The notes below the pieces were generated by a model, which was not told the DNA's origin, did no database searches, and saw nothing but the letters and a program-made list of their open reading frames with translations. This document shows positions 1,763 through 56,880 of a DNA stretch of 64,000 nucleotides, in pieces. The position numbers were made by a program, and so were the translations under genes. Every line of letters starts with the position of its first letter. Position 1 is the first letter of the stretch. The stretch comes from Haliotis asinina (lineage: Eukaryota > Mollusca > Gastropoda > Lepetellida > Haliotidae): the NCBI RefSeq assembly GCF_037392515.1, contig NC_090295.1:21220001-21284000 (forward strand). Reading direction: 5' to 3'.

Positions 1763-1925
1763 TACAAAGCGGCCTTAGCATTAAGTTGACTGTAACTCCC
1801 AGCCTTAAAATAGACTGAAAGTAGTCTTAGCAAGAAGGTGACTGTAACTCCCATACCTTAACATAGACTTTAGGTAGTCTTAATGCTAAGGTGACTGTAA
1901 CTCCCATGCCTTAACATTGACTAAC
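1763..1925. repeat. Three-copy ~52-bp tandem repeat built from a MITE end
   Basis: The motif GTGACTGTAACTCCCA recurs at about 1787, 1839 and 1892, giving a period of 52-53 bp. Each copy carries a CTTAG-CTAAGGTGACTGTAACTCCCA block and an AACATAGACT block. Both are internal to the palindromic MITE type seen at 26028-26139. The left edge (TTGTACAAAGCGGCCTTAGC) looks like that MITE's terminus. I infer local amplification of a MITE fragment. Confidence 0.6.
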
Positions 1926-1965
1926 AAATTAACACTTGTTAGGAGTATCAAATATTATTTTTATA

Positions 1966-2125
1966 GTGAGTTTTATGATTCTCTAAGCGAATTTTATAGC
2001 AACATCATGGTGGGGGAAACCAGAAATAAGTTCCACACATTGTACCCATGAGGGGAATCAAACCCAGGTCTTCACCGTGACAAGCAAATGCTTTAACCAC
2101 CAGGCTACTCCACTGTCCCTACTGT
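1966..2125 (-). mobile_element. SINE-A (tRNA-derived), near full length
   Basis: Read on the minus strand it has a tRNA-like head (A-box region around AGCCTGGTGGTTAAAGC, B-box region GGGTTTGATTCCCC), then the body (ACAATGTGTGGAAC) and a degenerate shared tail. It is flanked by imperfect 13-bp direct repeats at 1953-1965 and 2126-2138 with one mismatch, which fit a target-site duplication. It is non-coding and probably old. Confidence 0.75.
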
Positions 2126-2180
2126 TATTAATTTTATAAAACTTCTTAACAAACAGACAGGAAAATCCTGGCTAAATGGA

Positions 2181-2441
2181 GTGAGTGGGCGAGTTTAGTT
2201 TTACGCCACACTCAGCAATATTCCAGCTATATGGCGGTGGTCTGTAATTATCGAGTCTGGACCAGACAATCCAGTGATCAACAGCATTTTCTGTGCAGTT
2301 GGGAACTGATGACATGTGTCAACCACGTTAGCGAGCCTGACCACCCGATCCTGTTAGTCGCCTCTTACGACAAGCATAGTCATCTTTTATGGCAAGCATG
2401 GGTTGCTGAAGGCCTATTCTACCCCGGGACCTTCACGGGTC
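2181..2441 (-). mobile_element. SINE-B, complete, with perfect 11-bp target duplication
   Basis: A complete 261-bp copy. On the minus strand it runs from the head GACCCGTGAAGGTCCCGGGG through the CTTGTCGTAAGAGGCGACTA block and the GACTAACAGGATCGGGTGGT core to the tail AGCTGGAATATTGCTGAGTG and a GAGTGAG edge. The perfect direct repeat GGCTAAATGGA lies at 2170-2180 and 2442-2452, so both boundaries are defined. I see no clear pol III A or B box. Membership of the MetaSINE superfamily is a possibility from memory only. Confidence 0.85.
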
Positions 2442-2452
2442 GGCTAAATGGA

Positions 2453-3249
2453 AATTTACATGGTATGTGCTAAAACTTTAGGCAAAATTTCATTCAAAAC
2501 CTGTTCAACATTATTTCCATTCTGAACTCATCTCATGAGTCTTGTCCTCAGTTTTTTGTTCACAATCAAATAATGTACCAAAGTGTCCAACGCATATCTG
2601 ATACTCTTCTCATGGATTAGAGTTCTCACCGCACAAACTAATTGCAAAAAGTAACTGTTGAAAGAGAATCAAATTAACGGATAACAAATTTATCATGTCA
2701 TTATTGAATCTTACAACACACCAAAAGCAACAAAATTAAGTTATAAATTAGCAAAAACACAAAATGTTATTATTCTTGTTCACATGCAGAGCAGGAAGAT
2801 CCATGAATTTTTTCAATAAAATTTGGCCTCAACAGTAACTGATCACAATTTAAAATAATAGTGGCGGAAAGAAATTAGAGAACAGAAATTAAAACAACTA
2901 CCGGGTATAGCACAATTATAGTCTCTTGTCAAATGGGGCCATCTGGATCATGAATGGTACTTTGAAATCATGCTTCTATACGACTTATTCACATATGTAG
3001 AATATTTAATTTGAGCATTGCCGTTTTCATGGACTGCTATGGCATGTTTGTCTATTCAGAGAAGACTTCCTTCAACAAAACAAAGGATAAATTTATAACT
3101 GCCGGAACAAGTCTGTTTGGTTTTCACTCTATCAATGTGTATTTTTGGCTTGAAATTGTTTGGGCAGGTCCATTTAGTGGGACTGGTGGAAAAGATGGCC
3201 AGTACTTAAATTAGTTATGGTAATATGTGTCTGTTTATAAAACCATGAC
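2453..3249. other. No gene seen
   Basis: AT-rich sequence with no SINE, tandem array or recognisable coding segment. The 67-codon frame at 3011-3214 has no family resemblance. Confidence 0.5.
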
Positions 3250-3585
3250 ACCCGTGAAGGTCCGGGTAGAATAGGCCTTCAGTAACCCGTGAAGGTCCCG
3301 GGGTAGAATAGGCCTTCAGCAACCCGTGAAGGTCCGGGTAGAATAGGCCTTCAGTAACCAATGCTTGCCATAAAAGGCGACTATGCTTGTCGTAAAAGGC
3401 GGCTAACAGGATCGGGTGGTGAGACTCGCTGACTTAGTTGACACATGTCATCGGTTCCCAATTGCACAGAAAATGCTCACGTTGTTGATTACTGGATTGT
3501 CTGGTCCAGACCCGATTATTTACACACCGCCGCCATATAGCTGGAATATAGCTGAGTGCAGAGTAAAACTCAACTGCATCAAATT
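3250..3585 (+). mobile_element. SINE-B with triplicated head
   Basis: A plus-strand SINE-B from head to tail (AGCTGGAATATAGCTGAGTG near 3539). The first 35-37 bp of the head, beginning CCCGTGAAGGTCC and ending GGCCTTCAGYA, are repeated three times, with starts at 3251, 3286 and 3323. The block TGCTTGCCATAAAAGGCGAC/TGCTTGTCGTAAAAGGCGGC is the normal degenerate doublet of this family. Confidence 0.85.
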
Positions 3586-4200
3586 GAAAGTTCAAAGAAA
3601 ATGGCTATAACAGAACTGTATTGCCTCGTGATGTTTTTAGTCAAGATATTGCCATGGACGGTGAGAGTTTTAAAGAGACACACAAGCATTTGTTGACATA
3701 CAACTTTGAGTTTGACCCAATCAACTTTAATTTATAACACTGGGTTTATATTTCACATCTCTCGGGATATTTCAGTCAGACTTTTGGAGCTTCATTCACA
3801 TATCCTTCAGGGAATTCATTTATAATTCCATCAGAGTCAAAACAGCAAGGTTACATTTTAGAGTAACTTTGAAAATGCTTTGGTGATTTACAGTAGCTGA
3901 AAAATGATTATTTTATTTGCATATTCAATAAAACAATTCCCACATGAAACCTTCCAAAGGGTCACGAGTCACTATTTGGCTTGTCTCAGCATAACATGAC
4001 TGGGTCACAAATGATTTGTTGACTCGGTGGCCAGCTTGAACAAAGGACAAAGTAACGTACAGTACATAATCTCCAAGTACCATGCATGTTTAGAGGCATC
4101 AAACTCAAATAAGTATGACAACTTCCACCCAGCAAAGGCATTATGGAAGAATCAAATTCATGTGTTGTTAAAATAAATACCCAACTCAAGAGTCAGTGAA
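3586..4200. other. No gene seen
   Basis: AT-rich unique sequence. The 67-codon minus frame at 3986-4189 has no recognisable features. Confidence 0.5.
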
Positions 4201-4343
4201 CTTATTTTTATGCTAAATTTAGCAGTATTCCAGCAATATCATGGCGGGGGACACCAGAAATGGGAGTCACCCATGTGGGGAATCAAATCAAATGTTCAGC
4301 ATAACAAGTGAACACTTCAACCACAAGGCTACCCCACTGCCCC
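4201..4343 (-). mobile_element. SINE-A, diverged
   Basis: The minus strand shows the GGGGTAGCC-GTGGTTGAAG A-box region, a decayed B box (TTTGATTTGATTCCCC), the CACATGGGTGACTCCCATTT body and the tail GATATTGCTGGAATACTGCT. It is a retroposed, non-coding element with no clear target duplication. Confidence 0.75.
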
Positions 4344-4587
4344 TCAATTTGCAAGCAACCATCAGTAAGCATGGCATTTGGTTTGTTGCAGCCTCTTTAA
4401 CTCTAGTAATACACAACTGTTTATTCACACAATATGGAGTTACTGGTAGTATGACTTTGGCAAGACAGTGCAAAATGCAGTAAGTACTCAAAATCATATA
4501 TGTGACACAAATACATATATATCTCAATTAAACATTGCATACATTATGCATCATCTGGTCCGTGCATATCAACGTCATTGTTTTGTC

Positions 4588-4783
4588 GTTTAACACATCA
4601 CTCAGCAGTATTCAATCTATGTGGTGGTGGCTGTAAATAGGCAAGTCTGGACCAGACAATCAAGTGATCAATGCAATGAGAATCAATCTACACAAATAGG
4701 ATAAGATGAGGCGTCAAACAAGTCAGCAAACCTAACCATCCTGTCAGTTGCTTTTAACGACAAGCATGGGTTACTGAACACCA
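4588..4783 (-). mobile_element. SINE-B, diverged and lacking the head
   Basis: Tail, TCTGGTCCAGACTTGCC and ATTGATTCTCATTGCATTGA-type segments and the core are recognisable on the minus strand. The copy ends after CATGCTTGTCG and lacks the GAAGGTCC head. It is heavily mutated and so probably old. Confidence 0.7.
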
Positions 4784-4847
4784 AATGGAGGATTAGGTTT
4801 GACAATGGGAGTCTAGAGTGGATTAACATGTTACCTCCATGTTGGCT

Positions 4848-5080
4848 GTTAGGTGAGTGAGTTATGTTTACTGCTACTTTAACCAGTATATCAGTTATAC
4901 CACTGTTAGGTGAGTGAGTTATGTTACTGCTATTTTGACCAGTATATCAGTTATACCACTGTTAGGTGAGTTATGTTTACTGCTATTTTGACCAGTATGT
5001 CAGTTATACCACTGTTAGATGAGTGAGTTATGTTTACTGCTATTTTGATCAGTGTGTCAGTTTCACCACTGTGTGAACAT
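4848..5080. repeat. Four-copy ~57-62 bp tandem repeat, possibly SINE-tail derived
   Basis: The unit begins GTTAGGTGAGTGAGTTATG and contains CTGCTATTTTGACCAGTATA. There are four copies with small length differences. The order GTGAGTGAGTT, TTTACTGC, CCAGTATATCA resembles the antisense SINE tail, so I suspect a SINE tail was amplified. That derivation is inference. Confidence 0.7.
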
Positions 5081-5866
5081 GATGTGGGGAAAACTAGGTG
5101 AGGCAGGTGGTTAAGCCATGAGCTGACAAATATGTCAATACTATCCTAGGAAACCCAGATTTGAACCCAGGCAACTGATGCACCAAAGGAACACAACTCG
5201 GCCTGGTTCAGAGGACAACCCAAGTTTCAAGGTTCCCTTGTGTGATGAAACCCCCACGGCGTCCTGGCTCAATCCCAGGTCAGTCTTACTATCAACAGCA
5301 TCCGTGTTGTTATGACAAACCTTTGTGGCAGTATCCAGTTATAGCAATCATGACGATGGAATAGGTTAGTAGTGACGCAGTCTCATGTTAGTCTCCATAT
5401 GTTCTGCTGGAGGCAAGACTGCCTGCCAGAAAATGTGTTTATGAATTGGGATATACTTGTCGTTTTCATCACCTGTAAGCCAAACTGTTATCAGATATGA
5501 CAATATAGATATCATGTTCTCAAAAAATGTGTACCTGGCAATTTTGGGATCTTAGATAATGGATAGTGAATGGTCTTATGGTGTAAACAATTGGTGCTAA
5601 ATATTTACAGCTTCAGAGGTGGAGATATTTTGGTTTGATGTGATTGATGTAGCATGCACAACTGTCACAACAAACAAGTGATACTGCATGCAATCAATGC
5701 CAAGCTGATGCTTATGTGGAGGATGTGCTTTGATATAAGGGTCATGTTTGGTGCATTCAAATTAATCAAAATTACACGATTGGTTTTTAGCTTCTCTCAT
5801 GGTAAACATGTAGTGTCTAGGGGTGACCCTTTGTAAGTAGTGTGTAGGTTACAGACATGCATCTGG
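5081..5866. other. No gene seen
   Basis: Unique sequence without a recognisable gene. The 60-codon plus frame at 5654-5836 shows no family resemblance. Confidence 0.5.
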
Positions 5867-5917
5867 GTGAGCAAGTGAGTGTGCATGGTTTTACGTCACT
5901 TTTAGCAATATCTTCAT
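5867..5917 (-). mobile_element. SINE tail fragment
   Basis: Antisense tail GTGAGTGTGCATGGTTTTAC followed by CACTTTTAGCAATAT, with no body or head. It is a truncated retroposon end. Confidence 0.55.
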
Positions 5918-6138
5918 TCCGGTAGTCAAAAGACCTCAGGCTTTTAGTACACTATATACCTTACTTTATAAACATTAAAGGAACAATAAATTTTCTATGT
6001 ACCAATGCATATAAAATGTACATGGACAGGTTTTCAGTTTCTGTAGTATTTGAACTGTTTAACACTTGAAAATTCAAGCCTGACAATATTTTTCTTCAAA
6101 GTTTTCTGTAGTTAAGGAGGAAATGATGCTCAGCTTTA

Positions 6139-6273
6139 TTGCTTTTGAATATAGTAATATCACAACTGGAGACACCAGAAATGGCCTTCACACATTGTAC
6201 CTATGTTGGGAATCAAACCTGGATCTTTGGTGTGACGAGCTAGTGCTTTAACCACTAGGCTACCCCTCTTCCA
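6139..6273 (-). mobile_element. SINE-A
   Basis: On the minus strand: GGGTAGCCTAGTGGTTAAAG (A-box region), a CCAGGTTTGATTCCCAAC B-box region, ACAATGTGTGAAGGCCATTT and a TGATATTAC tail. It lies 36 bp from an oppositely oriented SINE-A, forming a loose inverted pair. Confidence 0.8.
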
Positions 6274-6308
6274 AGCAATATTAGGCAATGTTCATATTTG
6301 AGAGTTTA

Positions 6309-6455
6309 GGGTAGTGGGGTGGTTAAAACATTCACTCTTCACACCAAACACCATGGTTCAATTCTCAAAATAGCTACAATGTGTGAAGCACATTTCAAGT
6401 GTTCCCCACCATGATATTGCTGAAAAATTGCTGAAATATTGGAGTGAAACCAGAC
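6309..6455 (+). mobile_element. SINE-A, plus strand
   Basis: Plus-strand order: GTAGTGGGGTGGTTAAAACA, a decayed B box (CATGGTTCAATTCTC), ACAATGTGTGAAGCACATTT, and the tail ATGATATTGCTG with a duplicated TTGCTGAAAT. Its orientation is opposite to the neighbouring copy at 6139-6273. Confidence 0.75.
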
Positions 6456-7927
6456 TCCATCTTTGATCCTGTCATACATTAAAGGACATAAAACACATAT
6501 GGTGTCCATACCTGGCCCTCTGACTTTGTTTGAAATATGCCTGTTTGCCAAACAGAGAATGGGTACCTGTCAGGATTAAGCAGTCATGTGGCCATTCCCA
6601 TCCTACACCTCAAAGAGCTGGGAATGATTTTACACACACAACTCTATTGAAAAGTAAAAAAAACTGGAACTAATATGGTCACACCAGCAAGCAAGCTGAA
6701 CATTTCTCAGCCACATTTGGCTCATGTGTCTGGAAGCTAAGTGATCCAGTGTTGTGGGGCTTTTTTCATTGCCTGTCGATCCAGCCAGTTGCACATCCAT
6801 CATTGTCCTTATCATTGTTGGCTTCCCTGAAAGTACAAGACCTGCAAAGCTGACAATCCTGGGGAAATTTAGGTTTTTAGTTCCTACCAAAATTTTAATA
6901 TTCAATATTTCGCAATATTGAGAAAGCTATTTGTGTCTGTTTCAGACTGGATTGCACACATGAGCTACAGTGTCCCTGAAGTGGCTTTGATAGAACAAAT
7001 AACATGAAAAAACATATCCTTGTGAGCCTTGGATTACGTTCAATAACTATGAAAAAATAGATGACATAAACTATGATAACCTAGTGAGGTATGGACAACA
7101 GTAAGTTGCCATGACAACATGAAAACATGAAATAATATATCCTGGTGTGGTATGGATTTCATAAAATAGCCATGAATAATATGAAATAACATATTAAGGT
7201 CATCTACAGTGTCCATACAGTAGTCATAATAATATGAATAACATGATATACCATAACCATATGAGATACAATGCCCTTGAAATAGCCATATAAAAATAAA
7301 AAATATGAAATAACACATCGTTCATTAGTTAGATTTTGTCTTCTTTTGAATCTTGGCCACACACATTGTCGAAAACAAGAACAGGCTGATCTGTTCCAAC
7401 GATAAAATCCCAAAATCTCGCCAGGAAGGTTGCGTACATCATACTGTTACCCAGACAGTTGTAACATCTACCACCAGGTGTCTCTCATACTAACTCTTGA
7501 GGAATGGGTTGTCATAAACAAAGACTCATGTGCGTTTATAATTTGCCATAATAAAGTCCAGATCACAAAGATGCATCTGGAGATTGTTCTCATGCAGTTG
7601 CCAACAGAGAGCAGTTGCGTGTTATTCTGGGCAAAATTTGTTGGAGTGGTTTTATTGCCAGAGATTTGGATGCATTTCGGATTGTTAGTATTAAAATCAT
7701 TCAAGGAAAATCTCTTACAAGGTAAAATGGTGAGGTGCATTGATATGCATGAGTAAAGTCAGACAGAAACTTAAAGAGACAGCTGCAGCAGAACCGGGTA
7801 GATATATGTAAGTAAGCCGTGAATCGGCGGAGTTTGACTTTACAGTTTTAGCAGTATTCCAGTGTTCCCTTGTCACACTGAAAACCCAGTTTGATAACCT
7901 ACTTGGGTACAATTTGTGAATCCTATT
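6456..7927. other. No gene seen; loose AT-rich repetition at 7000-7320
   Basis: No recognisable gene. Around 7000-7320 the motif ATGAAATAACAYAT recurs irregularly every 60-70 bp, which suggests a very decayed tandem repeat. The 108-codon plus frame at 7430-7756 and the 90-codon minus frame across it have no recognisable motifs. A short antisense SINE-tail-like stretch (TTTTAGCAGTATTCCAG) lies near 7845-7861. Confidence 0.5.
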
Positions 7928-8319
7928 CAGGGCTTAGTTTAGTTCTTTGTTACTTGCACTGGTGCAACCCAATATAACAAAGTGCAACCTATTTATTTGT
8001 CTAATTTGCACCCTGTTTAAGTCAATTTTTGTAGAAATAAATCAACAATAAATCTAACTTTTTAAGCATAATTATGAGGGGCATTTATTAAAGATTTGCC
8101 CTGAGCCACTTTTAGTGGACTTAGAGGAACAAAACCTGGCACACTTATTAGTCCTTTTCTACACAGTGTGATGAGAGTGTATTTTGTGTAATTTGTATTA
8201 TTATTGATTTATAAGTCATAGTTATTACTGGTTCACAGTGTTTTGAGTGATAGTTATTATGTGTCACATTTTGTAAGATAGTAATGGTATTTTTGTCTTT
8301 AAAGTAGCACTTTCACTCA

Positions 8320-8362
<43 letters not shown>

Positions 8363-9122
8363 AGAGAGTGAGACTTACACTGGAGTTGTGTCATCATTCA
8401 TCCATTAATCTGCATTTGTCTGCCTCCCAAGACTTTGTACTTTGTGTCAAGGCAAATTCTTAACCATAACACTAGCAACCACCAAGAATTACACGTCTCC
8501 ATGCATCTATGATCATGGGCTAAGTGGCAAATAGTAAAATGGCGATCTTCCAAAATGGCAGTCTTCTTTTGATAGACAGTGTTTTCATCAATGGCTGAAT
8601 GAAGTCACCAAGAATATGTAATGGGGGCAGTTTCCAAAGATCTTTGAACACATTTTAACTGGCAATGCTAGTGATTACCACTTCATATGATGAGGCATAC
8701 TTCAATGAGTTGCTTTCATTCCATGAAAGGTCTCTTTTGGTGTGCAACCTTCCAAGTACAAAAACTTGATCACTGCTCAGTACTCATCTGGTTCCACTGT
8801 CAGACCTTATACTTCAGTATAACTCTTGTCAAAGAAATAGCTTTCATATTTCCATGGTGAAAATTACCACATGACCCATAGCTATGTATCATTACTCACA
8901 TGAAGCTTCAGCCACTTGTGAAAACCAGCAGTGGATCACGGGAAATCGTTAACGAATGCCCCTGATATGTCAGGTAATTTTTCGTCTAAACTTCAATAGC
9001 AAAATTCTGTCATTACATACTGCAATAAAAGCAGTGCAACTGGAATTTGTCTGGTGCAACTAGGTTCTTATTGTAGGTTGCACCTGGTGCAAATGGGTTA
9101 ACATCTCTTAAATCGAGCCCTG
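7928..9122. mobile_element. hAT-like non-autonomous DNA element
   Basis: The left end reads CAGGGCTTAGTTTAG and continues CTTGCACTGGTGCAACC. The reverse complement of the right end reads CAGGGCTCGATTTAAG and continues TTTGCACCAGGTGCAACC. Inverted termini starting CAGGG are typical of hAT superfamily elements. The interior of about 1.2 kb has no transposase frame and holds a CA microsatellite, so it is non-autonomous. I see no clean 8-bp target duplication. A second left end of the same family lies at 18718. Confidence 0.7.
8312..8369. repeat. (CA)n microsatellite with flanking CACT and AG runs
   Basis: A CACT start, then about 19 CA dinucleotides, then a short AG run. It sits inside the hAT-like element. 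Confidence 0.95.
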
Positions 9123-10148
9123 CTATCACTGGTGTCCTCCACCGAGATATTGATGGAATATTGCTAAAAGGCCACACAGCTACTCACTCACAAGAACTTT
9201 GTATGTCGCATGTATCTCATGACTAGAAATGCCAAAGGTTTATCTTTCAAATTCAGTGTCACATCTAACTTAAAGTATTTCCCTTACTGTCAAGCATAAA
9301 GAGAAATGAGGGATTCATTTGAACTGACAACGTCGCAGTGTTCCTTAAGATCGGATTTCAACCTTTCAGAGGAAGTGTCTCGTTCTTGTAGAATTCCATT
9401 CCCAAGTCATTTACCAAACAAATTGAAGATTGCTTCATTGTGTAACCTCTTACAAAACTGACATTTCATTACGGTAGTCATGACAACAGTGTAATTTATA
9501 CCATTCAGGACACACCCTTTGATGGTACAGTCAATCTGTTGCAGGTTGACTTTAGTGCAGCATTACACTCTCAATTTTCTGTCATTACATACTGCAATAA
9601 AAGCAGTGCAACTGGAATTTGTCTGGTGCAACTAGGTTCTTATTGTAGGTTGCACCTGGTGCAAATGGGTTAACATCTCTTAAATCGAGCCCTGCTATCA
9701 CTGGTGTCCTCCACCGAGATATTGATGGAATATTGCTAAAAGGCCACACAGCTACTCACTCACAAGAACTTTGTATGTCGCATGTATCTCATGACTAGAA
9801 ATGCCAAAGGTTTATCTTTCAAATTCAGTGTCACATCTAACTTAAAGTATTTCCCTTACTGTCAAGCATAAAGAGAAATGAGGGATTCATTTGAACTGAC
9901 AACGTCGCAGTGTTCCTTAAGATCGGATTTCAACCTTTCAGAGGAAGTGTCTCGTTCTTGTAGAATTCCATTCCCAAGTCATTTACCAAACAAATTGAAG
10001 ATTGCTTCATTGTGTAACCTCTTACAAAACTGACATTTCATTACGGTAGTCATGACAACAGTGTAATTTATACCATTCAGGACACACCCTTTGATGGTAC
10101 AGTCACTCTGTTGCAGGTTGACTTTAGTGCAGCATTACACTCTCAATT
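9005..10148. repeat. Near-perfect 572-bp tandem duplication
   Basis: Copy 1 is 9005-9576 and copy 2 is 9577-10148, an exact offset of 572 bp starting TTCTGTCATTACATACTGCA. By eye I find one internal difference (GTACAGTCAATCTG versus GTACAGTCACTCTG near the end of each copy). The unit includes the last 118 bp of the hAT-like element and 454 bp of flank. It is either a very recent duplication or an assembly artefact. Confidence 0.9.
9137..9193 (+). mobile_element. SINE tail fragment (duplicated again at 9709-9765)
   Basis: Plus-strand tail GAGATATTGATGGAATATTG then CTAAAAGGCCACACAGCTAC and a CACTCAC end. The head is absent. The second copy exists only because of the 572-bp duplication. Confidence 0.6.
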
Positions 10149-10808
10149 GTCTCTCATCTAGTTGAGGTGATATGGGCAGATATATGTGCAATCTTCCCTC
10201 AAACTGTTAGAGAGAGAACACAACCTATCCTGAAAAAGTTACTTAATACCAAATTGTTGGCATTCAAATGACGTCTTGTGTTGCTTCTTATGTCTGGTTT
10301 ACATTAATTTTTTCAAGGAAGTTTCCCGGTTCATAAAGTGCTCAAAATGTTTAAACCTGTCACAAATACATAGTTTTTCATTGGCTTGCAAACAATGCTG
10401 CATACAAACTCTTAGTGGTTTGGACCCGTTGAAAATGAATGTTGGCATAATTATCAATATTTTCAAGTGATAAATATGTTTTAAAATATTTAAAAACATA
10501 CTCAAAACACAATTTTAGTTGTCAGTATGCACAGATAGTTCCTGCAAACTTATGACAAATGAATTGAAAACTATGAGAGCATTACCCTGAACACTTCTCT
10601 GCACTTTATTTCAAACATATTATCCTGGAAGTTGGAACAATTGACCTTTTCCACTTTTTCATTCTTGAATACCACAGGTTCAAAAATTTACAGAAGAAAA
10701 ATTGCTCAATTTCAACCATTCTAATATTCCAGAACATTTCTAATATTTGAAATATTTCTGTAACTAGAAAATGGGACATTATCTGTATATCTCACCTGAT
10801 CCACATAT
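10149..10808. other. No gene seen
   Basis: AT-rich unique DNA. The overlapping 64-68 codon frames on both strands near 10276-10505 have no recognisable features. Confidence 0.5.
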
Positions 10809-21997: not shown

Positions 21998-22260
21998 CGT
22001 CAGGGGAAGATCTGGGTAGAGTAGGACCTCATCAACCCATGCTTCCTACAACAGGTGACTATTATTAACTTGTCGTAAGAGGCAACTAACAAGAATGGGT
22101 GTTCAGGCTCGCTGACTTGGTTGGCACATGTCATCATGTCCCAAATGTGTAGACCGATGCTCCTGCTGTTGATCACTGGATTGTCTGGTCCAGACTCAAT
22201 AATTTACAGACTGCTGCCATATAGCTGGGATATTGCTGAGTGAGGAGTACACCTGAACTC
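21998..22260 (+). mobile_element. SINE-B, plus strand, continuing into a tandemised tail
   Basis: Degenerate head (AAGATCTGGGTAGAGTAGGA), then ATCAACCCATGCTTCC, CTTGTCGTAAGAGGCAACTA, GGCTCGCTGACTTGGTTGGC, GATTGTCTGGTCCAGACTC and the tail ATAGCTGGGATATTGCTGAG. Its tail end is the first unit of the repeat at 22190-22470. Confidence 0.85.
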
Positions 22261-22470
22261 AGTCAGTCAGTAATTAATTACAGATCGCTGACGTATAGCT
22301 GGGATATTGCTGAGTGAGGAGTACACCTAAACTCAGTCAGTCAGTAATTAATTACAGATTGCTGATGTATAGCTGGGATATTGCTGAGTGAGGAGTACAC
22401 TTAACTCAGTCAGTCAGTAATTAATTACAGATTGCTGATGTATAGCTGGGATATTGCTGAGAGTGGCATT
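22190..22470. repeat. SINE-B tail multiplied about four times (74-bp unit)
   Basis: GGGATATTGCTGAGTGAGGA recurs at 22227, 22301, 22375 and, partly, 22448. The spacing is 74, 74 and 73 bp. The unit runs from the ACAGAYTGCTG-TATAGCTGG segment through the tail and an ACTCAGTCAGTCAGTAATTA joint. The copies are nearly identical, so the expansion is recent relative to the SINE itself. Confidence 0.9.
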
Positions 22471-30844: not shown

Positions 30845-31075
30845 AGCAATATTCAGCAATATTCCAGCTATATGGCGGCGGTCTGTAAATAATCGAGTCT
30901 GGACCAGACAATCCAGTGATCAGCAGCATGAGCATCGATCTGCGCAATTGGGAACCAATGACATGTGCCAACCAAGTCAGCGAGTCTGACCACCCGATCC
31001 CGTTAGTTGCCTCTTACGACAAGCTGAGTCGCCTTTTATGGCAAGCTTGGGTTGCTGAAGGCCTATTCTACCCCG
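30845..31075 (-). mobile_element. SINE-B within the compound insertion
   Basis: A well-preserved copy. The tail is AGCAATATTCCAGCTATATG, then TCGAGTCTGGACCAGACAAT, AGTCAGCGAGTCTGACCACC and CCTCTTACGACAAGC, and the head end reads GGCCTATTCTACCCCGG, lacking the last ACCTTCACGGGTC. The high match to the family suggests a fairly young copy. Confidence 0.85.
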
Positions 31076-31084
31076 GCAGGAAGA

Positions 31085-31310
31085 GAGAGAGCGAGTTTGG
31101 TTTTATGCCATTTTCAGCAATATTCCAGCAATATCACAGGGGTGTGCAACAGAGATTGGCTTCACACAAAGTACCCATGTGGGGAATTGAACTCAGGACT
31201 TCGGCATGACAAGTGAACACTCTAACCACTAGGCTAATCTCTGTTGCACACCCCTGTGATATTGCTGGAATATTGCCAAAAATGGCATAAAACCACACTC
31301 ACTCTCTCTC
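31085..31310 (-). mobile_element. SINE-A with inverted tail, forming a fold-back
   Basis: The minus SINE-A spans about 31085-31232, with A-box and B-box regions near 31180-31230. Its 75-80 bp tail end (from the GAGAGAGAGCGAG edge through TTCCAGCAATATCACAGG to GGTGTGCAACAGAG) is repeated in inverted orientation at about 31233-31310. The arms pair almost perfectly around a spacer of about 80 bp that holds the SINE head. CCACTAGGCTA flanks the inverted piece at about 31225 and 31313. Confidence 0.8.
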
Positions 31311-31345
31311 TCCACTAGGCTACTCCACTACCTATATTTCAGGGA

Positions 31346-42496: not shown

Positions 42497-43006
<510 letters not shown>

Positions 43007-43700
43007 TTAGTGATGATCGTAGCACTAAAACTGCTCAGTGGGCCCCAGGTGTACACAGGGCCATACTGCTGGGATGATCGTAACTCCCATTCTGCAGTAT
43101 AAGCTCGTCATGATTGTAGCACTAAAACTGCTCAGTGGAAAGGGCCCCAGGTGTACATGGAGTCATAGTGCTAGGATGATCGTAACTCCCGCTCTTTTGT
43201 GTAAGCTTGTGATGATTGTAGCACTAAAACTGCTCAGTGGAAAGGGCCTCGGGTGTATATGGGGTCATAGTGCTAGGATGATCGTAACTCCCACTCTTTA
43301 TTGTTACGAGTAGCTTGTGATGATCGTAGCACTGAGATTGATCAGTGGAAAGGGCCCCAGGTGTATACAGGGTCATAGTGCTAGGATGATCATAACTCCC
43401 ACACTAGGACACAGACTGAGAATTGTCACAGGACAAAGACAGTTTTGTAGGACAGGACCCAGTTCAGATTCTATAGATCGGAATCAAATCGCCATACTTT
43501 AAGAAAGAATTACGATTGTTATCGCACTAAAATTATGTTGTGGGAGGCAGAGGGGACCCATGTGTATACATGAAAGGCTTGAGTGATCTGAATCAAATTG
43601 CTGGCACTACAGATTGCTACAGCCTTACTTTAATGTAGGATTACAATGGTCAATTACATTGTGGGGCAGGGTCCCAGGTGTATACATGAAAGGTTCTAGT
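43007..43700. repeat. ~102-bp tandem repeat with MITE-like motif
   Basis: GATGATCGTAACTCCC recurs at 43073, 43175, 43277 and 43385 (CATAACTCCC in the last). Each unit also has GATTGTAGCACTAAAACTGC and GGGCCCCAGGTGTAYA. Two further diverged, longer units (GGGACCCATGTGTATACATG and GGTCCCAGGTGTATACATGA) extend to about 43700. The motif TAGTGCTAGGATGATCGTAA equals the interior of the TTTCACAAAG MITE family. Confidence 0.85.
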
Positions 43701-48685: not shown

Positions 48686-48717
48686 TCATGTCCATAGAAT
48701 GGACTCTGTGGAGCTTC

Positions 48718-48885
48718 AGTTAGAATAGGTTCCTATAACCCATCTTTATGTCATAACAGGCAACTTCGTCTGATGATCTTGACTGATATGTCATCATGCC
48801 CCAATGGTGTAGGTTGATATTCATGCCTTCAACCACTGGTTTATTTTGGTCTGCTGAGACTGTGATACAGATTGTCGCAGAGTCC
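48718..48885 (+). mobile_element. SINE-B, old plus-strand copy
   Basis: TTAGAATAGGTTCCTATAAC, CATAACAGGCAACTTCG, CTTGACTGATATGTCATCAT and CAACCACTGGTTTATTTTGG follow the family order with many substitutions. The tail is lost. Confidence 0.6.
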
Positions 48886-49091
48886 CTGAATTATATTATT
48901 CTCTGTTCAATCCATGCCCTTATGTAAAGCAAACACCCTAACGAAAGCAAATTTAGATTTTCCTTAGATTAAGAATGTCTAACTCATCTCATCTGGGTCT
49001 CCTTTTCACTTTATATGGAGTTATTTGTATCCATCAAAATCACATATTTTCAGAGGCTAGGCATTAGTCTACTCAGTGTAAAGATCCAGTT

Positions 49092-49282
49092 TTGAATAGG
49101 TCTTCACCAGCTTATGCTAATTGTAAGGGGTGAGTAACAGAATTGGGTGGTGAGGCTTGCTAACTTGGTTGACTGATTCCAGCCGATTCCATCTGCTCAT
49201 GATGTTGACCACTGGATTGTCTGGTCCTGACTCAATTATTCACAGACCATCACCATTAAGCCAGAATATGTGGCATTAAACA
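49092..49282 (+). mobile_element. SINE-B, old plus-strand copy
   Basis: TTGAATAGGTCTTCACCAGC, TTGTAAGGGGTGAGTAACAG, GGCTTGCTAACTTGGTTGAC, ACTGGATTGTCTGGTCCTGA and ATTCACAGACCATCACC appear in order, with a decayed tail (CCAGAATATGTGGCATTAAA). Confidence 0.75.
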
Positions 49283-49633
49283 TTCACAAACAGCCTTCGC
49301 AACAGGAATATTAGTGATAAGGCTTTATTATATTTCTCTGAGGATCATTCAAGGTCTTTTTGAATGATGTTTCAGTTTCACTGAACATGAGAATAGGGTA
49401 TACATCACAAAACACTGGGTTACTGACAGTTTTTATTGCTATGTAGGCTTTAGAATGAAGAGATGTTGTTTCAAAAATGTTTTAGGTAGCAAAATTCTGG
49501 ATATTTCGAGTACTACTGTTATTGACCAGTCACTGGTACTTCTTGCTACAGCCCTGCTGATGCTACTACTAATTTATTCTTATTTTATTGCTTGTTTTGC
49601 TCTAAGTCTAAAACTGTGTGTTTGAATTAACTT

Positions 49634-49795
49634 CATTGTGGGGTTGCCTAGAGGTTCAAGCATTCTTTCATCAAGCCAAAAAGACCCAGATTCAATTCTC
49701 CCCATGGGTACATAGTGTGAAGCCCATTTATGGTGTCCCCCAGTGATATTGCTAGAATATTGCTGAAAGCAGCGTAAATTCATACCCACTCGGTG
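49634..49795 (+). mobile_element. SINE-A, plus strand
   Basis: GGGGTTGCCTAGAGGTTCAA (A-box region), AGACCCAGATTCAATTCTCC (B-box region), CATAGTGTGAAGCCCATTTA and the tail GTGATATTGCTAGAATATTG then CTGAAAGCAGCG. Complete apart from point changes. Confidence 0.8.
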
Positions 49796-50340
49796 GTCAG
49801 TGACTGATTTAATACTTTAAGTTCTGTATGTACCAATTTATGGGTTAACCTTTGCAATTCGACTTCATAACATTTTATCAGCCATGAATAGTTTCAGTAA
49901 GACATTAAGAGTAAAGACCTGATTGGGTTTATTTGCTAGTAGTTTGGTCTTGCATCTTGATCAGTGCAAATGGCTGGTCATTTCCATAGTGGTGAGTTTT
50001 TAATTGACCTTATTTATGTCCGTTTATATCAGTTGTCATCTTGTGAGACAAATGCGAGTGGTTTATTGTGATTAGACCATAACGGAGTAATTGCTACAAA
50101 ATTTAGTATCACATTCAGCAGAAGGTATTATTCCTGTTCAGGTTCTGATCAGCTGCTGCTCGTTTTCATGATGACTGATATGAAGGGAAGAGGTATGTTA
50201 TTGGATTGATACTTGTTCGTTTAGATCACATGGACACATGATGATGATGAATCGAGTACGTGCAGATTGGTGTCATCTTCGGTATGTTTATTGCTTTGTT
50301 TTCTTTTGTTTTGGAGGTTGCAGCTTTTACCAATACTGGG
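49796..50340. other. No gene seen
   Basis: AT-rich unique DNA before the SINE-C. Confidence 0.5.
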
Positions 50341-50960
50341 CATGGTAGGCAAGCTGGCTAAATCACCAGGCTAGTGATCCAGTGAGCTTTAGGTGATGGG
50401 ATCATGGTAGGCAAGCTGGCTAAATCACCAGGCTAGTGATCCAGTGAGCTTTAGGTGATGGGATCATGGTAGGCAAGCTGGCTAAAGCACCAGGCTAGTG
50501 ATCCAGTGAGCTTTAGGTGATGGGATCATGGTAGGCAAGCTGGCTAAAGCACCAGGCTAGTGATCCAGTGAGCTTTAGGTGATGGGATCATGGTAGGCAA
50601 GCTGGCTAAAGCACCAGGCTAGTGATCCAGTGAGCTTCAGGTGATGGAATCAAGTCTAACTGTGGCCAGGTGTTAAAACCTTGGTGTCAGCTTTGTGTGC
50701 TGACTCTTATAGTGGTGTCACAGCCCCTGGTGTACAGTAGGCAACTCTGTGCACTTAAAACAACCCATGAGTTGAGGTACAGCAACAAAAGATCAATGCA
50801 GTAAACCTTGGACAAAGTACTGTGACTATATGTGTCCCAGTCCACCCAGCTGTGAATGGATACCAAAATATGTGTGAGAAAGTGGCAATAACTCAGTGAA
50901 CCTACTGGCTGCAAGAGATGACTATACTCTCTAGGGAGTTGAGCTTAATATTACGATGTC
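50341..50960 (+). mobile_element. SINE-C with tRNA-like head repeated five times
   Basis: Five 62-bp head copies start at 50341, 50403, 50465, 50527 and 50589. Each has GCAAGCTGGCTAAAKCACCA and GGCTAGTGATCCAGTGAGC. The order resembles tRNA-Thr(AGT): an A-box-like TGGCTAAAGC, then an anticodon loop CTAGTGA, then a decayed B box. The body follows once: CAGTAAACCTTGGACAAAGT, GTCCACCCAGCTGTGAATGG, GGAGTTGAGCTTAATATTAC. The body matches the minus-strand copy at 19330-19610. Confidence 0.75.
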
Positions 50961-50967
50961 CCATTCA

Positions 50968-52118
50968 GACTGACATCCAACATAATGATGGAAGTGTTCA
51001 CCCACATACCAACATAAAGATGGAAGTGTTCACCCACATACCAACATAAAGATGGAAGTGTTCACCCACATACCAACATAATGATGGAAGTGTTCACCCA
51101 AAGACCAACAGCATGATGGAAGTGTTCACCCAAAGACCAACATAATGATGGAAGTGTTCACCCACATACCAACATAATGATGGAAGTGTTCACCCACATA
51201 CCAACATAAAGATGGAAGTGTTCACCCACATACCAACATAATGATGGAAGTGTTCACCCACATACCAACATAAAGATGGAAGTGTTCACCCACATACCAA
51301 CATAATGATGGAAGTGTTCACCCACATACCAACATAATGATGGAAGTGTTCACCCAAAGAGCAACAGCATGATGGAAGTGTTCACCCAAAGACCAATATG
51401 ATGATGGAAGTGTTCACCCACATACCAACATAATGATGGAAGTGTTCACCCACATACCAACATAATGATGGAAGTGTTCACCCACATACCAACATAAAGA
51501 TGGAAGTGTTCACCCAAAGACCAACAGCATGATGGAAGTGTTCACCCAAAGACCAACATAATGATGGAAGTGTTCACCCAAAGACCAACAGCATGATGGA
51601 AGTGTTCACCCAAAGACCAATATGATGATGGAAGTGTTCACCCACATACCAACATAATGATGGAAGTGTTCACCCACATACCAATATGATGATGGAAGTG
51701 TTCACCCACATACCAACATAATGATGGAAGTGTTCACCCACATACCAACATAATGATGGAAGTGTTCACCCACATACCAACATAAAGATGGAAGTGTTCA
51801 CCCACATACCAACATAAAGATGGAAGTGTTCACCCACATACCAACATAATGATGGAAGTGTTCACCCACATACCAACATAAAGATGGAAGTGTTCACCCA
51901 CATACCAACATAAAGATGGAAGTGTTCACCCACATACCAACATAAAGATGGAAGTGTTCACCCACATACCAACATAAAGATGGAAGTGTTCACCCACATA
52001 CCAACATAAAGATGGAAGTGTTCACCCACATACCAACATAATGATGGAAGTGTTCACCCAAAGACCAACAGCATGATGGAAGTGTTCACCCAAAGACCAA
52101 TATGATGATGGAAGTGTT
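50968..52118. repeat. 32-bp minisatellite with mixed variants
   Basis: The unit is CCCACATACCAACATAATGA plus TGGAAGTGTTCA, about 36 copies, with a 32-bp period measured at 51001 and 51033. Two variable positions combine: CATACC or AAGACC, and ACATAATG, ACATAAAG, ACAGCATG or ATATGATG. The order of variants is non-random, for example AAGACC-CAGCATG followed by AAGACC-TATGATG three times (the first with a GAGC change). The array starts directly at the 3' end of the SINE-C. Confidence 0.93.
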
Positions 52119-52735
52119 CATTCCTATTTCAATACAATGACAGGAGGTGCACACCCCTGTATCCCCTCCTCTGGATCTGCCTATGACATGTAATTTCTGT
52201 TATACATACCACAGTTTCAACTTTGGGTTACATACAAAATTTTGTAGGCGCTTGTGATATTAACAGTTTTCAGAAGAACAAATAGTCATCTCACATAATG
52301 GGGAGGGATTCCCGATTTTACATCCCTTTCTTCATACAATCATATGTGCCTCACATCAAAATTTGAACCAATTGTTCAACCAATTCCACGCACTGTGTTC
52401 CTTGTTGACAAATGCAACAACTTGTGTGGTCATGAATAGAACATGGCAGAACTTCCTGGTTGCATCAAAAACTGCTAATCAAAGCCAGAGTGAAGAAATC
52501 CATTCTCCGTGATGATACTCATAACATCTGAGAAGAAAGTTAACAAGACAGCTTCTTGTTCTTGTCTAAGGGAAGGACGTTATAAAAATTAATGTTGAAC
52601 ATAACATCACAATTTTACAATGCGCTACAGACTGATTTTCGTAACCATTTTAACATGCTTTCAAAAATTGGATGGATGGTCCAATTTATCAACATGAAAC
52701 AGTAGCAGACCAGTTCCATGTTCATAAGTCACGTT
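52119..52735. other. No gene seen
   Basis: Unique DNA between two tandem arrays. Confidence 0.5.
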
Positions 52736-53135
52736 CAAAAGCCATGTTCATTAGTTCATGAACCATGTTCATAGGCCATGTTTATAAGTTCATAAGCCAT
52801 GTTCATAAGCCATGTTCATAAGCCATGTTCATAAGTTCATAAGCCATGTTCATAAGTTCATAAGCCATATTCATGAGCCATGTTCTTAACTTCATATGCC
52901 ATGTTTATAACTTCATAAGCCACATTCATAAGCCATGTTCATAAGTTCATAAGCCATGTTCATAAGCCATATTCACGAGTTTATAAGCCATGTTCATAGG
53001 CCATGTTCATAAGCCACATTCATAAGCCATTTTCATAAGTTCATAAGCCATATTCATAAGCCATGTTCATAAGTTCATAAGCTATGTTCATAAGTTCATA
53101 AGCCATGTTCATTAGCCATGGCCATGTTCATAAGC
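52736..53135. repeat. CATAAGCCATGTT short tandem array
   Basis: Irregular alternation of GTTCATAAGCCAT and GTTCATAA units, with occasional ATTCAT, GTTTAT and CACATTC variants. Units of 13 and 8-9 bp are mixed, so the array has no single strict period. Confidence 0.88.
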
Positions 53136-53136
53136 T

Positions 53137-53187
53137 ATTATAATACAGCTGGAATATTGCTGAAAGTGGTGTAAAAGTGAACTCACT
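53137..53187 (+). mobile_element. SINE tail fragment
   Basis: ACAGCTGGAATATTGCTGAA then AGTGGTGTAAAAGTGAACTC: the shared tail on the plus strand, directly after the CATAAGCC array. Confidence 0.65.
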
Positions 53188-53219
53188 GTTCATGTTGAAT
53201 GCTTAGAGGATAAATGTAC

Positions 53220-53358
53220 TGTGTTGGAAAATCAGAGGTATATAACAAAATTGTAATAGCTCTGAATTTGATTTAAAACCGAATGCATAGTGTGAGGTTT
53301 TAAATACAAAATTCAGAGCTATTATAATTCTGTTATATACATCTGATTTTCCAACACA
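53220..53358. mobile_element. 139-bp fold-back element
   Basis: The left arm is TGTGTTGGAAAATCAGAGGT, ATATAACAAAATTGTAATAG, CTCTGAATTTGATTTAAAAC. The right arm is its near-perfect reverse complement, ending CTGATTTTCCAACACA. The loop is about 20 bp (CGAATGCATAGTGTGAG). The terminal TGTGTTGG is shared with a partial third arm at 53418-53457 (GTGTTGGAAAATCAGAGGTA), so the family has more than one copy locally. Confidence 0.8.
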
Positions 53359-53534
53359 ATGTGTTTATCTCCATTCTACCATAACTGTGTTATTCAGATT
53401 TTTAACATATACAATAAGTGTTGGAAAATCAGAGGTATATGACACGATTATATACCACTGAATGACTTTGATTAACCTATCACAATCCAGTATTTACTGA
53501 AGCCATGGTAGAACAGTGATTGTTCGATTCCCAG

Positions 53535-53725
53535 TCGTGAGTCAGTGAGTCAGTGAGTTTAGTTTTAAGCCACTTTTTAGCAGTATTCCCGCAGTACCCC
53601 ACTACATTAGCATTACTCTACACAAGTGGGATACAATGACATGTGTCAACCAAATCAGCAAGTCTTACCACAAATCAGCAAGTCTCACCACAAATCAGCA
53701 AGTCTTACCACAAATCAGCAAGTCG
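53535..53725 (-). mobile_element. SINE-A tail joined to SINE-B piece with 20-bp repeat
   Basis: Antisense tail GTGAGTTTAGTTTTAAGCCA and AGCAGTATTCCCGCAGTA is followed by SINE-B sequence ACACAAGTGGGATACAATGA and CATGTGTCAACCAAATCAGC. The SINE-B centre CAAATCAGCAAGTCTTACCA then repeats at 53651, 53671, 53691 and 53711, exactly 20 bp apart. After the array, GTCGCCTCATACAAGAAGCT resumes SINE-B order. Confidence 0.75.
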
Positions 53726-55032
53726 CCTCATACAAGAAGCTGAAGATGCTGAAGATCAATTCTAACCCAGACCCAGTTTGTTACATAATGTCACTACCAT
53801 GTAGGTTGTGACTGCCAAAACAGTGTTACATGTGAAAACACAATGAGCTCAATCCCACCAATTTAAAAGTCATACATAATTGTTTATGGTTGTTTGTGGA
53901 TTCTAAAAAAAATACCCTTCTAACAACAACTCACAAATCAATGCATCGACCGTGGGTAACAAACAAATTTCACTTAATTCTAAATTTCACTGACAGTTTC
54001 TTTTAAAAAAGTGACCAGAAAGATGTTTTGCTGGAGTAACACAAGTCATTGATTGATGGAGTCTAAGAATCTGGAAGGAGGGCTCAGTCTCAGGAAAGTC
54101 TCCAGAGCAGTACTGTCTTAGTGGCGTAAAAATGTTTTCCGATGCCTAATGGTTGCGGAGAGCTGGATATATGTCACATACTTAAAGTTGGAAACAGCGT
54201 TGTGTTTTTTGTCACTAGGATGGAATTAAAACAAGTATTAGAAAATACATCAGGTCGTAGGAAAGGATGAGGACATACATCAAGAGGTGGAGACAAGGAT
54301 ATGTAAATTAGTCAGATAAGTACAAGACTAAGCTGAGAGGATCAGCAGCTCATCCAAAAAGATTCATGTCATTTTTTCACTAAATTTTTTTTGTCTACAA
54401 GCTTATATTTTATCATGCATCCCAAAGGAAATTCTTTCTGTATCAGAAACAGCCTGAAAATGAACAAATACAAAATTCAGAAAAGTATACACAATAATTA
54501 CATACACAAAGTGAGTGCTGGTGATTTCATACAATTAGCCACATAATTCAAGAGGCTGAGTTATCACATGCATGATGACTATTCAAAAACATTTGTTGCA
54601 TAAATAATAGTGGATGGTATGAAGTGTTTTGTAAGTTGGAATAATTAGGCAACATGATTTTATTTTTATCTTAATAGGGGTTGGCTTAGGAGTGCATCCA
54701 ATGCATCTGTTGATAGGTCACATCATGGTGACCATCATTAAAAGTATCAGGAAAAGAAACATAACTGCATAGAATTTGTGAGATCGGTCACGTGGATTAA
54801 AATGCCAATTAGATGGAACTTTGGATTCATGGAGTATTACTGAGAATAGACCAACATGACAACGCCATCACTCAGCTGAAGCAGTAAAAACAAGGCTGGA
54901 TACTGAAAGGCTGGATACTGAAATATTTTTAAATTCATGTTTCGTTCCTCTTTTCATTGAAAATATTGTATATATCTCTGTTATCAGTTCTGGAAACAGT
55001 GTTCCATGCCAAACAAAAATCCCCCTCCTTCA
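53726..55032. other. No gene seen
   Basis: AT-rich unique DNA. Confidence 0.5.
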
Positions 55033-55044
55033 GCTTTTCTTTGG

Positions 55045-55144
55045 GTGAGTGAGTGAGTTTAGTTTTACGCCGCACTCAGCAATATTCCAGCTATATGGCG
55101 GCGGTCTGTAAATAATCTATTCTACCCCGCGACCTTCATGGGTT
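55045..55144 (-). mobile_element. Internally deleted SINE-B with perfect 12-bp target duplication
   Basis: Only the tail half (GAGTTTAGTTTTACGCCGCA to GCGGCGGTCTGTAAATAAT) and the head end (CTATTCTACCCCGCGACCTT) remain. About 150 bp of centre is absent. GCTTTTCTTTGG lies perfectly at 55033-55044 and 55145-55156. The remaining sequence is very close to the family form, so it is young. Confidence 0.88.
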
Positions 55145-55189
55145 GCTTTTCTTTGGATTGGCATTGTTGGTTCCTTACGTGAAGACCCT

Positions 55190-55625
55190 ATTGGGAGTGA
55201 GTGACTATGGTTAGCTTTACGCTGCTTGTAGCCAGTGTGGGAAATAGTTCCTAATTTTGCTTTCCATTCAGGATAGGTACGCCTGAGAGTTAAAAGTCCA
55301 CAAAATAATTTACTCAACTGAAATTTGAATGTAGACATGTGTTTCATCATTAAGCTGCTAATATGATGATCATTTTTATCAGGACACAATCTTGCATATT
55401 TAAAAGTCAACAGTCAGGCCAGTGCCTGTGGAGACTTAATGGCCCAACTCAACTTTTACTAGCCTTGGGCCAGCAGGCCAGTTGCTATATTGCACACTGC
55501 TTGTAGCAATATTCCAGCAATATCACAATGGGGAACACCAGGAATTGGCTTTACATGTTCTACCCATGTGGGGAATCGAACCCAGTGACAAATAACACTT
55601 TAACCACGAGGCTACTTCACCGACC
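55190..55625 (-). mobile_element. SINE-A interrupted by a hAT MITE
   Basis: The tail end (GAGTGAGTGACTATGG then TTAGCTTTACGCTGCTTGTA) is at 55195-55232. The rest (AGCAATATTCCAGCAATATC, GAACACCAGGAATTGGC, GGGGAATCGAACCCAGTG, CACTTTAACCACGAGGCTAC) is at 55500-55625. The two parts join cleanly once the 267-bp insert and one 8-bp duplicate are removed. Three bases are also lost near the B box. Confidence 0.88.
55233..55499 (+). mobile_element. hAT MITE with 8-bp target duplication
   Basis: A 267-bp insert starting CAGTGTGGGAAATAG and ending TATATTGCACACTG. The terminal inverted repeat is CAGTGTG/CACACTG. The perfect 8-bp duplication CTTGTAGC is at 55225-55232 and 55500-55507. This combination is diagnostic of hAT. 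The minus frame at 55117-55410 is a by-product. Relatives lie at 38859-39118 and, inverted, at about 35085-35310. Confidence 0.92.
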
Positions 55626-56129
55626 CTGAGGACTATAAGACTTCCATGATCGTGGAGTTCTCAAGGTAACATTATACATGCATATGTCATTGAGCATTAC
55701 TGTCAGGGTTGACAGTGTGGATGGTGCAAGAGAAGGATGGTCACGATGATTTAATTTGGAAACAACTTGTAAAGTTTTTGCTGTAATTTGTTCTTTCAAT
55801 TCAGTAGTTTTTATAAAATTTTAAAAAGTAATTTAGCTGGTTCAGCATCATCTTGCTCTTGTTTAACTTTGAAATTTAATATTCAGAACTACACTGATAA
55901 TGCTAGTTCTGTTTAAACATAAAAATTACCCAAGTGTCCTCGTCTCTCATGAACATTTCATGAAGTCTGATTTTTTTCATATGCTAACTGACAAATTGTG
56001 TAAAAAGTTCAGTGAAAATTCAATCAAGTTTCACTAATTCAATTTCAAGAACTCAATGGTTTTTGATGTAGAAGGAAGTTAAAATGTAAAACTGATGGAA
56101 AGAAACTGCTCTCGAATTAAAGTTATTGT
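55626..56129. other. No gene seen
   Basis: Unique DNA. A 60-codon minus frame at 55617-55799 begins inside the SINE-A head and is not credible. Confidence 0.5.
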
Positions 56130-56880
56130 CCGGGCCTTGTTACAAAAAGTCATTGCAGCACTAAGGTGATCGTATGTCCCATACTGTAAGGCAATTGTAA
56201 CACCCCCACTATAAGGTAATTGTAACCCTCATACCTTAAAGTCATCATAACCCCCATACTATAGAGTAATCGTAACTCCCATACCGTAGGGTAATCGTAA
56301 CTCCCACACTTGAAGGTAATCATAACTTTCATACTTGAAGGTAATAATAACTTTCACACTTGAAGGTAATAATAACTCCCATACTTTAAGGTAATCATTA
56401 CTCCAATACTATAAGGTAATCATAACTCCCATATGTGAAGATAATTGTAACTCCCATATTTGAAGGTAATCGTAACTCCCCCACGTGAAGGTAATTTTAA
56501 CTCTCACACTTGAAGGAAATCGTAACTCCCATACAATAAGGTAATCATTACTCCAATACCATTAGGTAATCATAACTCCCAAGCGTCAAGGTAATTTAAC
56601 TCCCATAGTTGAAGATAATCATATCTCCCATGCAAAAAGGTAATTGTAACTCCCATACTATAAGGTAATTGTAACTCACACGCTTGAAGGTAACTGTAAC
56701 TCACACGCTTGAAGGTAATTGTAACTCACACGCTTGAAGGTAATTGTAACTCTCATACTATATGGTAATCATAGCTCCCACACTATAAGGTAATTGTAAC
56801 TCACACACTTTTAGGTAATCGTAATGTCCATGCTATCAGGTAGTCATAACTCCCAAACTATAAAGCAATAATATCTCACT
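56130..56880. repeat. ~25-bp tandem array derived from a MITE end
   Basis: The first element reads GGGCCTTGTTACAAAAAGTC and AGCACTAAGGTGATCGTATG, which is the TTTCACAAAG MITE terminus. Then follow about 29 units resembling AAGGTAATCGTAACTCCCAT plus ACTTG. Variation is high, so the array is older or under less homogenisation than its neighbours. Confidence 0.85.

Follow-up and report, generated by a model that had tools for sequence, protein, structure and literature searches.

Tandem arrays in a 64,000-nucleotide stretch of the Haliotis asinina genome (NC_090295.1, positions 21,220,001 to 21,284,000; hereafter the window) have units that resemble short interspersed nuclear elements (SINEs) and a miniature inverted-repeat transposable element (MITE). 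They raise the question of whether pieces of mobile elements turn into satellites in this genome and, if they do, whether its satellites generally arise in this way. We find that seven of these arrays are probably minisatellites that either expanded within copies of non-autonomous mobile elements or are descended from such copies, and that were started by mispairing of short repeats, while comparison with random stretches of the genome points away from a general route. One genome thus serves as a countable natural experiment: it holds a many-copy SINE with arrays at known positions, a candidate trigger for some of these arrays, and a MITE family in which solitary, array-bearing and long-array forms exist next to one another. 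What decides which stretch of an element turns into a satellite can be tested from sequence alone, and the results caution against generalizing from a single repeat-rich window.

Seven arrays in the window are built from pieces of mobile elements

Tandem arrays in the window were called with Tandem Repeats Finder (TRF), which returned 93 rows. For comparison, we used 18 random 10-kb stretches (180 kb) from contigs C1-C16, together with targeted searches of the genome, whose assembly comprises 1.143 Gb in 159 contigs, 16 of them 50-106 Mb long. Window and sample yielded 137 non-redundant arrays. After exclusion of 41 arrays with a period below 15 bp and separate analysis of 32 with fewer than 2.4 copies, the main test set comprised 64 non-redundant arrays (period of at least 15 bp, at least 2.4 copies), 29 from the window and 35 from the sample. 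Their units were compared with a tail-trimmed library of four element families, SINE-A, SINE-B, SINE-C and the MITE. Consensus sequences of SINE-A and SINE-B were derived from copies in the window and the sample; the SINE-C head in the first library was taken from the window array itself, and a second library took its SINE-C and MITE references mostly from loci outside the window.

The original prediction, based on the window, named seven arrays built from mobile-element pieces. TRF detected all seven, and all match SINE-B, SINE-C or the MITE beyond shuffled sequences. With the first library, exactly these seven of the 64 arrays exceeded 200 of 200 dinucleotide shuffles; with the second, six of them exceeded 499 of 499, and the array at 53651 exceeded 497 of 499. 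Each unit in the seven arrays therefore has an identified source element. The seven arrays and the features associated with them are as follows.

1753..1922, plus strand: truncated tandem-repeat MITE; left terminal inverted repeat (TIR) at about 1753-1772, then a 53-bp unit x2.8 (TRF array 1774-1922)
3250..3359, plus strand: SINE-B head array, 35 bp x3.1 (TRF and library match), upstream of the SINE-B body at 3383-3575
4846..5072, minus strand: possible SINE-tail array (weak), 57 bp x4.1 (TRF), matching only with the CTCAC tail included
22204..22461, plus strand: SINE-B tail array, 74 bp x3.5 (TRF and library match), continuing the SINE-B match at 22069-22269
43010..43402, plus strand: near-complete MITE head to tail, 102 bp x3.8 (TRF and library match), with the junction at the terminal GGGCCC
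50341..50652, plus strand: SINE-C head array, 62 bp x5.0 (TRF and library match), before the SINE-C body
50701..50970, plus strand: SINE-C body of the copy bearing the head array (element match)
50973..52120, plus strand: 32 bp x36 array (TRF), suggestive only, beginning within the 3' end of the SINE-C copy at 50701-50970
53651..53724, minus strand: SINE-B core array, 20 bp x3.7 (TRF and library match), between SINE-B matches at 53605-53671 and 53691-53771
56162..56877, plus strand: array of part of the MITE core, 25 bp x28.7 (TRF and library match), probably a shortened 53-bp unit

All four SINE arrays (3250, 22204, 50341 and 53651) are adjoined or surrounded by the remainder of the same element. 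These observations support the conclusion that element pieces become tandem arrays in place, within recognizable element copies, and the same SINE has given rise to arrays at many further loci. At the junction of the 3250-3359 array, 4 bp (ACCC) are shared. The 3' tails of the first and last units of the 22204-22461 array differ, so two insertions followed by exchange are an alternative origin there. The 32-bp array at 50973-52120 begins in the 3' end of the SINE-C copy with the head array; one SINE copy may therefore have seeded arrays at both ends. When compared with SINE-C 3' ends, the first unit of this array gave p values of 0.003-0.006 (L043), 0.04-0.09 (L047) and 0.07-0.15 (L044), and the unit consensus had no SINE-C match (p 0.28-0.88).

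Three of the arrays had been described as MITE ends (at 1763, 43007 and 56130). Their MITE origin holds, but the term "ends" does not: the array at 1774 consists of the core and one palindromic box, that at 43010 covers positions 3-106 of the 107-bp element, and that at 56162 is part of the core. An eighth array, placed at 4848 (TRF 4846) and tentatively likened to a SINE tail, does match the tail on the minus strand when CTCAC is included (p 0.001-0.002 with 1000 mononucleotide shuffles; agreement in 37 of 52 aligned columns, in part owing to the CTCAC repeat), but has no match in either tail-trimmed library, and its SINE origin is weakly supported.

Array units match elements no more often than controls in the random sample

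The seven arrays had also been taken to indicate a general route of satellite birth. We compared array units with non-array control segments matched in length to the arrays. With the first library, element matches were found for 7/29 arrays versus 32/348 controls in the window (p=0.02), 0/35 versus 15/420 in the random sample (p=0.62), and 7/64 versus 47/768 in the pooled set (p=0.18). The corresponding figures with the second library were 7/29 versus 25/232 (p=0.06), 0/35 versus 12/280 (p=0.37) and 7/64 versus 37/512 (p=0.31). A library-free test, which asked whether a unit is found elsewhere outside arrays, was flat both in the window (5/29 versus 106/580) and in the sample (7/35 versus 113/700). 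The excess over controls thus leans positive only in the window that prompted the claim, and both libraries and the library-free test lend no support to a general route, as an enrichment claim, at the scale tested.

The window is an element-rich and array-rich spot and hence an unfair sample: it has 38 element places in 64 kb, compared with 38 in 180 kb of the random sample (5.9 versus 2.1 per 10 kb), and 4.5 versus 1.9 arrays per 10 kb. As element-derived arrays in the sample are no commoner than element abundance predicts, array formation from elements appears to be a genuine route, and for the most part a known one, rather than this genome's general source of satellites. In the data at hand, how often element-derived arrays occur likely follows how common the elements are. 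A modest enrichment may still be compatible with the small random sample, which comprises 35 arrays in 180 kb tested against four element families, and from which decayed arrays escape detection.

Arrays with fewer than 2.4 copies, the two-copy arrays, did match elements more often than controls (7/32 versus 11/256, p=0.001). A 22-bp duplication that is part of SINE-B accounts for five of these seven matches; the remaining two are a pair of SINE-A copies and a 16-bp MITE match. The SINE-B duplication is seen at 2355-2399, 3361-3405 and 31005-31047 in the window and also in L012 and L018; it is an old tandem duplication that turned into a family feature.

The 53-bp array belongs to a dispersed MITE family

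A pattern search of the loci read yielded ten MITE copies, nine of which have a length of 107 bp and ends resembling GGCCCACTTGCACAAAG. Seven of these nine solitary elements have identical CAG or CTG on both sides, and the other two show one mismatch; the tenth copy, of 99 bp in L009, lacks matching CAG/CTG flanks. PIF/Harbinger elements produce a 3-bp target-site duplication of the type CWG or TWA. With a 3-bp duplication of this kind, the 107-bp MITE appears to be Harbinger-like. Each of its TIRs contains the palindrome TAGCGCTA, which is its own reverse complement. Because the box is self-complementary and present in both TIRs, the MITE also carries a direct repeat 53 bp apart, and the 8-bp exact match at a lag of 53 is the longest among 83 lags.

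A genome search with the 1774 array gave at least 305 matches (from the best 40 of 586 candidates), with a dense run at C10:55739173-55746255. Six loci with 53-bp arrays outside the window were read from flank to flank. Both TIRs are present in five of them (L035, L039-L042) and one TIR in L034, several ends having been judged by eye. The TAGCGCTA boxes are spaced 53 bp apart in L039-L042, except that L040 and L041 each contain a single box match off the array (51 and 97 bp), and L035 has other spacings besides 53 bp. TRF counted 5 to 15 copies of the 53-bp unit in L039-L042; the solitary 107-bp elements have two boxes and are related to the array forms without being the identical subfamily. 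These elements have the features of tandem-repeat-containing MITEs, namely TIRs around an internal array and variable copy number beside single-unit elements. The window copy at 1753-1922 matches the left TIR at 1760-1771 (p=0.005), and no right TIR was found in it. This dispersed family, TIR-[53 bp]n-TIR, includes the 1774 array as a truncated member; the array is not a local birth.

The unit of the 43010 array matches solitary elements elsewhere in the genome. Relatives of the 56162 array that were read are arrays of 24 bp (L050), 52 bp (L051) and 53 bp (L049, L052). L050 is a different array, in which 33 copies of a 24-bp unit occupy the whole stretch C7:7545550-7546350. Both the 25-bp array at 56162 and the 24-bp array in L050 appear to have been derived from the 53-bp unit by shortening. 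A candidate for another 25-bp array, C7:25856049, reads out as a 53-bp array (L049). The seven arrays are therefore not stages of one process: one (1774) belongs to a dispersed MITE satellite, one (43010) has no second 102-bp array like it among the 17 matches listed, and one resembles a reduced 53-bp unit.

SINE-C gives rise to arrays at further loci

SINE-C-derived arrays were found at at least ten loci, which is a lower bound because 40 candidates were scored per search. The head array of the window has relatives at four other loci, with units of 64 bp x6.1 (L002), 53 bp x6.8 plus x5.7 (L003-L005, one locus), 53 bp x3.1 (L006) and 33 bp x4.9 (L007/L008). No SINE-C body match was found in L006. 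L007 and L008 show the same array with the same surroundings on two contigs, C18 (1.8 Mb) and C4, which may reflect a duplicate haplotype contig, and were counted once. The SINE-C head contains motifs that we take to be similar to boxes A and B of RNA polymerase III promoters, and the SINE-C core presumably resembles a Nin domain. Neither ARAGORN (bacterial settings) nor Rfam at gathering scores detected a tRNA in the window.

A tandem query made from the SINE-C body yielded four further array loci (best 40 of 1,380 first-look candidates). Since the head query had yielded the same number outside the window, we rejected the idea that the head is a special hot spot. All four loci carry 21-bp arrays at SINE-C positions of about 130-157, with copy numbers of 10.3 and 14.2 at two loci and of no fewer than 26.0 and 42.9 at the other two. 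SINE-C flanks the array on both sides in L043 and L044, and on the one side read in L045 and L046. In SINE-C, the 21-bp unit lies between two copies of CACAACC, and the exact 7-bp match at lag 21 is of a length attained by 5 of 108 lags. From a second built-in repeat, ACGTGCA at lag 30, an array with a 30-bp unit was predicted, and it was found in L047 as 3.3 copies within continuous SINE-C. The remaining long lags of SINE-C are 28, 75 and 100.

Proposed short-repeat mispairing and its alternatives

Periods and junctions make replication slippage or unequal exchange our best reading of how the arrays began. Mispairing would involve a pair of short repeats that the element already contains, or chance microhomology; the period of an array started in this way equals the spacing of the two repeats, and the array would then enlarge by the same process. 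For the MITE, the TAGCGCTA direct repeat, one box per TIR, would give the 53-bp period, after which array-bearing copies would disperse and yield both long arrays and the reduced 24- and 25-bp forms. For SINE-C, CACAACC at lag 21 would yield the same 21-bp array at four loci. The 53- and 102-bp units of the MITE and the 21- and 30-bp units of SINE-C fit such a mechanism well. A poorer fit is seen for the 53-bp unit of SINE-C (5 bp shared, equalled by 28 of 108 lags) and for the 35-bp unit of SINE-B (4 bp).

It is possible, with a probability that we place just below even, that built-in repeats do more than start arrays, and that elements carry latent satellites whose site and period are preset by the spacing of direct repeats, including palindromes nested in inverted repeats. 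If so, the same minisatellite could be reborn in unrelated copies, and future arrays could be predicted from the sequence of the element; 21-bp SINE-C arrays at four loci, a 53-bp MITE box and a lag-30 array found on prediction are what such presetting would look like.

Several observations weigh against mispairing of built-in repeats. Little built-in repeat is seen for the 62-, 64- and 33-bp units of SINE-C and the 20- and 74-bp units of SINE-B. The SINE-C periods 33, 53, 62 and 64 and the SINE-B periods 20, 35/36 and 74 are unremarkable among lags, with runs of 2-5 bp that are attained by 28 to 108 of 108 lags, and the junctions of units with such periods share only about 0-5 bp. Prediction has had a single success, the lag-30 array; a second lag-30 candidate, C15:35650146 (L048), showed no 30-bp array on read-out. 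The SINE-C and MITE references are hand-composed composites, and the SINE-C candidate loci were chosen by tandem queries with the best 40 candidates scored per search, so that no rates can be derived from them.

Arrays might instead start anywhere and land in SINEs and MITEs merely because these are common, with the elements acting as a passive substrate. The lack of enrichment in the sample, in the pooled set and in the library-free test agrees with this explanation, as do the element-rich character of the window and the several periods without a notable built-in repeat. Random starts would not be expected to give one shared 21-bp unit at a single SINE-C position in four loci, an array period that matches the MITE box, or the lag-30 match, and the excess in the window alone (p=0.02 or 0.06, depending on the library) also speaks against them; we consider a passive substrate a plausible but somewhat doubtful explanation. 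Another explanation is that one array-bearing SINE-C or MITE copy arose once and was then transposed around the genome. For the MITE such spread is clear, as dispersed array-bearing copies retain TIRs at both ends. For SINE-C, the evidence points both ways. Three of the four 21-bp loci (L043, L045 and L046) have the unit variant GTGTGCAG in common, which fits spread, and two head arrays (L003 and L006) have an equal period of 53 bp. On the other hand, the SINE-C bodies of the 21-bp copies L043-L045 are only 76-87% identical to one another, the L043 body is as close or closer to array-free SINE-C copies, and the head-array periods differ (62, 64, 53 and 33). The body divergence, seen in few sequences, fits repeated birth of the 21-bp arrays without proving it. 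Overall, we regard spread from a single origin as rather unlikely. Still less can be said for the reverse order, in which mobile elements captured pre-existing tandem repeats. This order was proposed for miDNA4 in Xenopus, a published model for one MITE (PMC12628747), but here solitary MITEs and array-free SINE copies contain the stretch as a single copy that is collinear with the remaining element, and we judge capture highly improbable.

Other repeats in the window and the sample

A 572-bp tandem duplication at 9000-10157, with 99% identity over 586 bp, is above the TRF period limit and contains a SINE-A piece in each copy. The 30-bp array at 61164-62156 has a higher-order period of 328 bp, at which 93% of positions match, compared with 79% at 30 bp. 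Large inverted repeats, 68-76% complementary, are found at 31082-31311, 6153-6421 and 53184-53389, the first two being SINE-A copies that face each other. The random sample includes long arrays in L009:5829-10000 (49 bp x85) and L011:3349-9994 (44 bp x149), neither of which matches the four elements tested.

Comparison with known systems

The birth of satellites from SINEs and MITEs is established in the published record, molluscs included. None of the titles returned by our literature searches concerns the present elements in this genome, although such work may exist in print. MITEs with internal tandem repeats include Xstir and miDNA4 in Xenopus and pearl and DTC84 in bivalves (PMC12628747, PMC9659126, PMC5139131). 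In these, as in the family described here, a MITE encloses an array whose length varies and which stems from the interior of the MITE, and single-unit and array forms coexist. DTC84 reportedly also has a palindrome near the repeat junction. The present element differs in being a 107-bp Harbinger-like MITE with a palindrome nested in each TIR, and the distance between these two palindromes is the array period. Among gastropods, the PcH-sat satellite of the limpet Patella caerulea derives from a Nin-SINE (PMC11121367) and thus likewise has an array unit that contains a SINE segment. PcH-sat is described as a 179-bp, very abundant and pericentromeric satellite, whereas the SINE arrays read here are short and local.

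In the human genome, 23% of minisatellites and satellites are reported to be derived from transposable elements, with hot spots in AluS and LTR12 (PMC3389668). As in our data, these human arrays can originate anywhere within Alu or other elements, and they expand in place. Established direct-repeat models are said to explain only 6% of the human cases (PMC3389668), whereas two element families here show a repeat at the observed period. Minisatellite birth through slippage between short separated repeats has been proposed before (Haber and Louis, 1998; Taylor and Breden, 2000; as cited in PMC3389668), and our arrays resemble that model in that direct repeats of about 5-10 bp flank the unit. They differ from it in that the repeats are supplied by a mobile element, and because the direct repeats come with the element, the same unit can arise more than once.

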